Shown here one piece after another: positions 50,311-54,523 of a stretch of 64,000 nt of DNA (the first letter of the stretch is position 1; the number at the start of each line of letters is the position of its first letter). This stretch comes from Eucommia ulmoides (taxonomy: Eukaryota > Streptophyta > Magnoliopsida > Garryales > Eucommiaceae): positions 1 to 64,000 of the forward strand of contig JAENRU010000485.1 in NCBI GenBank assembly GCA_016647705.1, in the 5' to 3' direction. The notes under the pieces are model-generated. The model saw nothing but the letters and a program-made list of their open reading frames with translations, made no database searches and had not been told where the DNA came from. The position numbers and the translations under genes were made by a program.

Positions 50311-51500
50311 AGTTAAAGTTAACACCGGTGTTGATATTCAATTCGGCGGTGGATTGAAAATGTTCATTAACGTTAAAACACACCATTTTTCATTTTGTAC
50401 AAGTGTTTTTCTAGACAAATTTAAATGTGGTAATGGCTGGATTGTAATTTGTATTGAACATTAACACAACTAAGTTTAATGTGCTAGATTGGTGTGCGTT
50501 AACGTAAACGCAACTAAGTAAAATGTGGCATTGGTGTGCGTTAACGTTAACGCAACTAAGTTAAATGTATTGGATTGTAATTACGTTAACGTTAATGCAA
50601 TAAGTTAAATGTACTGGATTGAAATTGCGTTAACGTTAACACAATTAAATAAATGTGTTGGAGTTGTAAGTGTGTTAATGTTAATGTAATTAAGTTTGTC
50701 TGTGTTGTGAGTGATTTTTATTTCACACATTTTTTTGGACAACTTTAAGTGCATTAACGTTTAATACAGAGAGGTAACAAAATGTGCATTGACGTTAACG
50801 CAAACTATTAACGTTAACAAACACACAAATGAACAAGATGCATTAATGTAAATACACACAAAATATGCTAAATATTCAAGAAAAAAAACACACAACATGT
50901 CTGGTGGTAAAATGAGTTAACGTTAATGTAATACAAAAAAAGAAGAAGGTAATGGCTGGGTTGTAATTGTGTTGAGCGTTAACACAACTAAATATATTGG
51001 GGTTGTATTTGCGTTAACGTTAACGCAATTAAGTTAAGTGTGTTAGATTGTAATTGTATTAACGTTAACGCAATAAAATTAAATGTGTTGGGTTGTAATC
51101 GTGTTAACGTTAACGCAATTAAGTTAATGTGTTGAGTTGTATTTGCGTTAACATTAATGCAACTAACGTTAACATTAATGCACACAAAATAAATAATGAA
51201 AGAGACGATAATATGAAACACAAAAAATAAAATAAAATACATTAACGTTAACGTACACACAAACGAATAAGATGCATTATGTAAACACACAAAATATGAT
51301 AAATATTCAAGAGAAAAAATATATAATTCGTCTGGTGATAAAATGAGTTAACGTTAACGTAATGCACAAACAGACAGATTGGGAGATGATGCGTTAACAA
51401 AAAAAAATAAAATGGATTCAACAACGTTAACGTCAATCCCAATGTAATATTATAATATAGGTAAGTGGTATTTACTTGAATAGGTTACGTTAATGTTAAC
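49870..51500. repeat. Minisatellite built on the palindrome GTTAACGTTAAC
   Basis: The dodecamer GTTAACGTTAAC or a version with one or two changes occurs about 25-30 times in 1.6 kb, usually as GCGTTAACGTTAACGCAA. In two tight stretches (about 50,480-50,690 and 50,990-51,180) it sits in a ~45-bp unit. The rest of that unit is AACTAAGTTAAATGTGTTGG followed by a TTGTAATT block. Elsewhere the spacing is irregular. The palindrome has an ACGT core and keeps a CpG in very AT-rich DNA. Frames of 60-100 codons crossing it are repeat-derived and not called as genes. Confidence 0.9.
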
Positions 51501-52302: not shown

Positions 52303-52634
52303 TGTTGTCTAGGTTGCGACCATACCAGCTATAATTCGCCAGATCCCATCAGAAGTCCGCAATTAAGCGTGCTTAGGTATGAGTGGTATTAGGGTAAGTG
52401 ATCTCCTGGGAAGTTCTCATGTTGCAACCCAATTGAATTTAGGAAGAGATCTTGGCGCAACGATAGAAGTTGTCGCTGGTGTGACCTGGAGGTCAAGGGT
52501 TCGAGTCGTGGAAACAACTCCTTGCAATGCAAGGTAAGTTTGCGTACAATAGACCCAAGTGGTATGATCCTTCTCCGGACTCCGCGCATGACAGGAGTTT
52601 TGTAGCACCAAACTGACCTTTTATGTTGTCTAGG
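52303..52634 (+). mobile_element. Composite retroposon: 5S rRNA sequence fused to an Au-type SINE within one target-site duplication
   Basis: The repeat TGTTGTCTAGG (11 bp, exact) lies at 52,303-52,313 and 52,624-52,634. Between them are a full-length 5S rRNA-like segment (52,312-52,430) and, 15-20 bp on, an Au SINE (about 52,448-52,620). Au landmarks: GAAGTTGTCGCTGGTGTGAC, CTGGAGGTCAAGGGTTCGAG (box B), GCGTACAATAGACCC, CTCCGGACTCCGCGCATGAC and a short T-rich end. One direct repeat around both parts shows that they were inserted together as a single unit. Both parts are derived from RNA polymerase III genes. Confidence 0.9.
52312..52430 (+). pseudogene. 5S rRNA-derived sequence (119 bp)
   Basis: The length equals that of plant 5S rRNA. 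Conserved stretches include GATCCCATCAGAA, TTAAGCGTGCTT, the intermediate element region (GAGTGGTATTAGGGTAAGTG) and CTCCTGGGAAG, and the ends GGTTGCGACC and GTTGCAACCC can pair as helix I. Several substitutions mark it as a derived copy. It stands alone, has no terminator T-run directly after its end, and is joined to an SINE, so it is not an rDNA array unit. Confidence 0.9.
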
Positions 52635-53489
52635 GTAATTTTGACTTGGAATTATTGAGTTTTGGTTGTGTTTGGTTGGATGGAGAATGAATGATGTGGA
52701 TATTTTAACTTCTATTTCTATAATTTGGTTGGAGGAAGTGTATTTCCTCCTTCGAAAAACAAACTCATGGCACTACATTTGCACTTACATGGTTTTGCAT
52801 TTACGTGAATGAGATCTAATAGGAATGAAGTTGTATTTTGAATGGGTGCCCATTCAAATTTTGGGGGCTTGGGGTTGTTGGTTGGGAATTGGGATCCAAT
52901 TTTGTGGTTGTTATATTGGGAGAAATTGTGTCTTACCTCAAATTTATAGTTATTGTACTCAAATAGTTTTTGGATTTATTGGTTTATCTATTGTGACCTT
53001 GAGGTTCCGGATTCAAATTTTGGAAATAGTCTCTCTGTATGGAGGGGCAACACTGTATACATCTAATCTTCCACAGACCCTGCAATGGAAGGAGTCTTTG
53101 TGCATTGGGTTTTCATTTTTTGATACCTCTTTACTAATTAAAAATTTAGATAATTTTCATTATTTTAATGATCTAGTCAAAACCAGTAATGATGCTATAA
53201 AATTTGATGAAAGCACCAAGTGGTTTTGAGTATTACAGTTAAACTATTAGCCATGGTGCTTGTATAAAATTCTTCAGCACTCTAGGTGCCTGCTTAGATT
53301 GACTTCTAAAAGGAGAAGAAAGTTTTATCCCCATAAGTAGTCTTGTTTTGTTCGTCAAAAATCTATTTTGATATCGAATCCAAACAAACTGTAGTAAGCC
53401 AATGGGCCTAACTCACTCTCGAAAGACTCCTTGAAAAAGGAAGATTATCTCAGACTTTATATAGCTCAGGATCAGGTAACACAAGCAAT
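52635..53489. other. Spacer with a second, diverged Au-like SINE fragment (about 52,980-53,115)
   Basis: The fragment reads TTGTGACCTTGAGGTTCCGG, then ATTCAAATTTTGGAAATAGT, and near its end CACAGACCCTGCAATGGAAGG, in the order of the Au consensus but with many changes. A 134-codon plus-strand frame (52,825-53,229) runs straight through it and is therefore not a gene. A TTGTGTTTGGTTGGATGG-type MITE-like piece precedes it (52,665-52,760). No target-site duplication is clear. Confidence 0.6.
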
Positions 53490-54523
53490 GTGGGATTCAA
53501 CATGTCCCCTCATGCCTTGAAATATGTCATTGATCTCCTTCAGGACACTGGGATGCTTGGATGTAGACCTGCTTCAAGTCCTATGGACCCAAATCTTAAG
53601 TTAACAACAAATTCAGGAGAATTATTACCAGAACTATCGATATATCAGCGACTTGTGGGTCGCCTTATCTATCTTACTAATACAAGGCCAGATCTTATGT
53701 ATGCTATCAGTGTTGTGAGCCATTTTATGCACTTACCTGGTACACCACACTTGGATGCAATCTACTATATCCTTCGTTACCTCAAAACCTGTCCTAGTCT
53801 TGGTCTCTTTTATATAACAGGGGCACATGAGGTACTCTCCTGCTTTACAGATGCCGACTATGCAAGATCGAAGAACAATAGACTTTTGACCTCTAGTCTA
53901 TGCACCTTTCGTGGAAGACACCTAATTTCGTGGAAGATTAAGAAGCAATCCATTGTCTCTCAATCTTCTGCTGAAGCTGAGTATCACGTCATAGCTCAGG
54001 GAACGTGTGAACTCTTTTGGCTTCGTTCTGTTCTGACCGAGCTGGGACTTTCCATGAAAAACTCATCTAAACTGCTTTGAGACAATAAGTCCGCCATAAT
54101 GCTATCATCGGACTCAATTCTTCATGAAAGGGCGAAATACATCGATGTGGATATCCATTTTATCTGTGAGAAAGTCCGATCAGGAATCATCACACCTACC
54201 TTCATCTCATCTTCTGAATAGGCTGCTGATATATTCACCAAGTCTACAAGACTATCTCTTCTTCAATCAGCTATTGGCAACCTAGGGCTCATCAACATTT
54301 TCGCCCCAGTTTGAGGAAAAGTGTTGAAATACAACATGTATGCATTTATTTTTTGCCCTGATATCGTTATTGTAAGACTTTATTAGCTCATTTATTCGGG
54401 TGATATCCTTGCTAATTTAGTTTGTTCGCTCCTGTGGCTATATAATTAGGAGTATAGAATCCATTTTGTATATAAGAAAATACTAAAATATACTTTTCTC
54501 TTTTCCTATATCCTTTTGATACA
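53490..54523 (+). mobile_element. Ty1/copia retrotransposon 3' remnant: RNase H, polypurine tract and 3' LTR
   Basis: The frame at 53,490-54,080 holds the end of reverse transcriptase and RNase H of copia elements: TGMLGCRPASSPMDPN, YQRLVGRLIYLTNTRPDL, FTDADYARSKNNR (catalytic Asp), SWKIKKQSIVSQSSAEAEYH (catalytic Glu). A TGA interrupts before DNKSAIMLS. The same frame then gives HERAKYIDVDIHFI and, after a TAG, AADIFTKS, the usual C-terminal end of Pol. The polypurine tract TTGAGGAAAAG (54,310) is followed by an LTR-like TGTTGAAATACAACATG at 54,322, ending near GATACA (54,523). Gag, integrase, most of reverse transcriptase and the 5' LTR are missing. Confidence 0.9.

Follow-up and report, generated by a model that had tools for sequence, protein, structure and literature searches.

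We conclude that the window (G000:C61:1-64000, the whole 64,000-nt stretch of DNA that was analysed) probably carries the product of a single chimeric retroposition event, which joined a 5S rRNA copy to an Au SINE and was later duplicated together with its surroundings. The insertion is laid out as follows:

52303-52313, + strand: left target-site duplication (TSD), TGTTGTCTAGG, an exact 11-bp match to the right TSD
52312-52430, + strand: 5S rRNA retro-copy, end to end, matched by the Rfam model
52431-52442, + strand: linker of 12 nt, AATTGAATTTAG, which reads AATTTTATTTAG in the duplicate on contig C60
52443-52623, + strand: full-length Au SINE beginning at base 1 (GAAGAGATCTTGG..), as judged from the starts of other Au copies
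52619-52622, + strand: terminal T run of the Au SINE, followed by one A
52624-52634, + strand: right TSD, TGTTGTCTAGG

The 5S segment covers positions 1-120 of the 120 positions of the Rfam model (69.3 bits, E 1.5e-12; gathering score, 38), and is identical to the 5S gene of the genome's arrays at 96 of 119 positions. The GG that ends the left TSD also forms the first bases of the 5S, and the 5S and Au parts lie on the same strand with the 12-nt linker between them. The dispersed Au copies that we read mostly begin with GAAGGGGAGCC or a variant of it, directly 3' of their own TSD. Therefore, the Au start was placed at 52443, and the Au, which begins at its first base and ends in a short T run, is complete, like the 5S. 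These results agree with the first-pass annotation, which had described an exact 11-bp repeat enclosing a full-length 5S-like segment and an Au-type SINE in the same orientation. The Au part is 78-84% identical to 39 Au-only stretches of the genome (among the best 40 of 865 candidates), and the segment that begins with GAAGGGGAGCC and ends in the terminal T run is common to a dispersed family, putatively Au, the name given in the first-pass annotation. At another Au locus, L037 (G000:C14:58830600-58831800), three tandem Au SINEs are separated and flanked by TAGTAGAAATTTTAGGC-like TSD copies, as if insertion had occurred repeatedly at a single target.

ARAGORN in its bacterial setting called no tRNA in the window. 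The fold of 52312-52442 was not more stable than those of shuffled sequences (z -0.58; 51 of 200 shuffles were at least as stable). In helix I of the 5S, the window copy alone has G3>T together with C116>A, a candidate compensatory pair that was set aside because a rough estimate puts it at about chance level among 23 substitutions.

Elsewhere in the 946,670,599-base assembly (391 contigs), C60:112.88-113.19 kb contains the same insertion at the same site, with the same repeat and homologous flanks, and is therefore a duplicate and not a second insertion. The full-element query matched C60:112903-113190 over query positions 41-332. In the C60 copy, the TSD is 13 nt long and overlaps the 5' end of the 5S by GGGT, and the linker has TTTT two bases after the 5S. 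More broadly, C60:96-125 kb is patchily colinear with C61:40.8-60.4 kb, with main pieces that are 88-92% identical, which makes the C60 segment either a second haplotype or a region that was duplicated or is homoeologous. Queries with the flanks recovered only the C61 and C60 loci in the genome, plus a 46-base partial match on C7, and the search for an empty site within the genome yielded these two flank copies, each filled.

The two loci have diverged by 28.4% in the 5S (19 transitions, 10 transversions, and 17 gap columns) and by 18.5% in the Au (31 transitions and 2 transversions), compared to 8.5% (near) and 10.1% (wider) in the 5' flank and 5.1% or 8.1% in the 3' flank. The element (52312-52623) is about 1.8 to 5.6 times as diverged as its flanks, by part and flank, mainly through transitions; methylation-driven decay would account for this pattern. 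Downstream of the chimera by about 360 bp, 52989-53098 may be a decayed Au-like SINE remnant (nhmmer 9.7 bits, E 0.013, below the inclusion threshold), and the C60 copy has this stretch too. Reading frames at 53412-54221 resemble a remnant of a Ty1/copia reverse transcriptase/RNase H, as recognised by eye; this copia-like remnant, the Au, and the 5S together suggest that the genome is that of a plant. At 50457-51172, there are two tandem-repeat arrays (unit about 42-45 bp) in which GCGTTAACGTTAACGC-like sequence is abundant.

The outer repeat was compared with chance and with the TSDs of other Au copies. When 20000 random site pairs with the same spacing were drawn from the window, only 14 (0.0007) had a repeat of at least 11 nt, with 3 nt of slack allowed. 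TSD scoring excluded Au matches that were partial (query start after 22 or end before 185) as well as elements that shared identical flanks, and it retained 51 distinct elements, namely the two chimera loci and 49 control Au copies; the controls are the copies most like the queries and not a random sample, and a few lie in simple repeats (e.g., L097 and L106). Relative to a null of 2352 mismatched pairs (95% quantile, 7), the controls had a median score of 15, with 41 of 49 above 7 and 8 of 49 not above it. The outer repeat of the chimera, scored with a left stretch cut around the already known repeat, reached 13 in the window and 14 in C60, in line with these control TSDs. The inner pair adjoining the Au scored only 4 and 5, respectively, which 0.73 and 0.45 of the mismatched pairs reached. 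Absence of an inner repeat is not decisive alone, because 5 of the 49 controls also scored no better than the chimera's inner pair. Nevertheless, one TSD encloses the two parts and none was found in between, the arrangement by which a chimeric small-RNA/retroposon insertion is recognised. Thus, insertion of the 5S, linker, and Au as one unit, which the first-pass annotation had put forward, is statistically supported; the outer repeat is unlikely to be due to chance by these comparisons, and an inner Au TSD that would have contradicted this conclusion was looked for at both loci and was no better than chance.

The same scores bear on whether an Au and a 5S retro-copy could have inserted independently, in either order, at exactly the same nick. 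This reading is consistent with the serial Au insertions at one target in L037, with the 5 controls that likewise lack a recognisable adjacent repeat, and with the last 10 nt of the C60 linker, which match 7 of 10 outer-repeat bases (by eye and unscored). However, the inner pair scores at the level of mismatched pairs, whereas 41 of the 49 controls exceed the 95% quantile of the null, and the outer repeat is exact at both loci. Two coincident insertions are thus very unlikely.

Comparison of the two loci also indicates what the donors were like. The C60 5S is identical to the array 5S gene at 87 of 102 positions. At the 102 positions shared by both copies, 71 are unchanged, 16 are changed in the window only, 11 are changed in C60 only, 2 differ in both copies, and 2 (positions 64 and 68) are changed alike. 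Because only 2 of 102 positions are changed alike in both copies and 2 more differ in both, the donor appears to have been a nearly genic 5S RNA. In the common ancestor of the two copies, the 5S would have shared about 96-98% identity with the 5S genes of the genome, and hence would have been nearly genic at insertion, or at least at the time of locus duplication. The Au parts of the two loci have 13 common departures from the consensus of 26 copies. No single one of these copies carries more than 6 of the 13, so none of the 26 is recognisable as the source copy.

The first-pass annotation had raised the possibility of a new SINE family, or else of a one-off template-switch product, and had proposed searching the source genome for copies with different TSDs. 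In that search, the best 40 of 865 candidates for the full-element query were scored and gave 41 matches: the window, C60, and 39 that start at query position 128 or later and so contain Au with at most the linker. An element query taken from the C60 copy gave 42 matches, and only the two loci had the junction among the best 40 of 757 candidates. Likewise, only these loci had the 5S junction among the best 40 of 324 candidates for a junction query; the other 38 matches were Au, and in the nine of these that begin before query base 37, all read or scanned, there was no 5S. The genome-wide junction pattern GTTGCANCCCN{5,34}GCRCAACGRTAR occurred at 2 sites in 947 Mb, both of them the C61/C60 insertion, compared to 0 matches for the reversed-pattern control. 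In addition, blastn of the 5S gene (E<1) found no match in 61 other locus records (118.5 kb), of which five repeat a place already included and one (L114) is not an Au locus.

Other searches were less sensitive. A 159-nt query of 5S plus junction (best 40 of 194 candidates) recovered the window along with 39 matches on C248, C285, and C5 that contain only 5S, and it missed the known C60 copy. A 65-nt query matched itself alone and missed the C60 copy, which implies low sensitivity, and a stricter junction pattern, which failed to match even the two known copies, says nothing about decayed ones. Any locus that has decayed beyond what the queries and the pattern tolerate could escape detection. 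A junction pattern matched 23 stretches in viral contigs, which we assume to be chance matches; the exact Au pattern had 0 matches in these contigs, and a phage collection contained no match to the element.

Within the reach of these queries and the pattern, the junction is therefore limited in the genome to one insertion event, at two duplicated loci. A dispersed, SINE3-like family of 5S-headed Au SINEs to which this locus belongs would have the right architecture in principle, with a Pol III head, a SINE body, and a tail. However, the genome searches did not find several dispersed copies with different TSDs, as in a SINE3-type family, and the second locus shares its TSD and flanks with the first. 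Moreover, no 5S match at E<1 was present in the 61 locus records, and there is no family-specific set of 5S changes, with only 2 of 102 positions changed alike. We consider membership in such a family extremely improbable and favour the one-off alternative.

A different origin of the junction is a Pol III read-through transcript, made where an Au had inserted a short distance 3' of a 5S gene or pseudogene, and retroposed once or a few times as a possible seed of a dimeric SINE. The linker would then be old genomic sequence between the 5S and the Au, and Au copies do insert after A/T-rich targets, such as C16:52595512, where the bases before the Au resemble the linker but are part of that copy's own TSD. 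By contrast, neither the pattern nor the junction query (best 40 of 324) revealed a source locus with a 5S-linker-Au junction, and the array 5S units examined run into a T-rich spacer and not into linker sequence. In addition, the TTTT in the C60 linker would tend to stop Pol III before the Au. Read-through of this kind is, on balance, unlikely.

In the single chimeric event that we favour, machinery presumably of LINE type would have copied an Au SINE RNA into cDNA by target-primed reverse transcription. Synthesis of the cDNA may have continued onto 5S rRNA, either by a template jump at the 5' end of the Au or because 5S and Au RNAs had been ligated beforehand. The target before insertion would have been one intact TGTTGTCTAGGGT, and the full-length 5S end would have been joined to it through GGGT microhomology, since the target GGGT in C60 matches the 5' end of the 5S and gives the 13-nt repeat. 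This joining would have left one TSD of 9-13 bp around the whole unit. Subsequently, the locus would have been duplicated and each copy would have decayed on its own, with transitions predominating. A simple jump from the 5' end of the Au to the 3' end of the 5S leaves the 12-nt linker unexplained; the linker may consist of untemplated bases or of the upstream flank of the Au source transcript. The insertion is laid out like the U6/LINE-1 chimeras, in which the retroposon is headed by a small RNA that is sense and full-length.

Cassandra elements carry the 5S inside an LTR and have a short TSD of 5 bp. A Cassandra LTR is ruled out at this locus by its layout, in which the 5S starts within the TSD and the linker and Au come next. 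Cassandra TRIMs are, as here, plant retroelements with a 5S, as described in PMC10853983 and PMC10886601, but here the 5S abuts the TSD without LTR sequence around it. In PMC13174262 (Cell Genomics 2026), the mammalian U6/LINE-1 chimeric insertions (Buzdin et al. 2003, as cited therein) are sense and full-length and are attributed to RNA ligation or template switching, and the 27 5S/LINE-1 cases are typically antisense and truncated. As far as these descriptions go, both types resemble our locus in having the small RNA 5' of the retroposon, a TSD around both, and an origin in independent single events. In contrast to them, the host here is a plant, the partner is a SINE instead of LINE-1, and there is a 12-nt linker; in its sense, full-length 5S, the insertion resembles the U6 type and not the human 5S/L1 cases. 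SINE3 elements also have the 5S at their 5' end, and the families named in the relevant part of PMC10886601 and the 5S-headed SINEs listed in that of PMC3747384 are animal; here, no dispersed family was found and the body is itself a complete Au SINE. Compared to the Au SINE described by Yasui et al. (as cited in PMC3747384) and in a wheat survey (PMC5787218), the unit has a complete Au copy as its 3' part and differs by the 5S segment that precedes this copy. "Chimeric", where it occurs in the wheat survey excerpts, refers to Au/flank transcripts of genes and not to 5S.

A limited literature search found no plant 5S/SINE chimera, and to that extent this locus would be the first such insertion described. 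It offers a clean example in which a plant retroposon and a cellular Pol III RNA became fused in apparently one insertion, a step that has been proposed for the birth of composite SINEs. As a single event, it shows that this fusion is possible and does not show a mobile family. It is doubtful that plants make sense, full-length 5S/SINE chimeric insertions recurrently; if they do, 5S capture by SINE templates would be a working route by which new 5S-headed SINEs, and perhaps the 5S of Cassandra, could arise.
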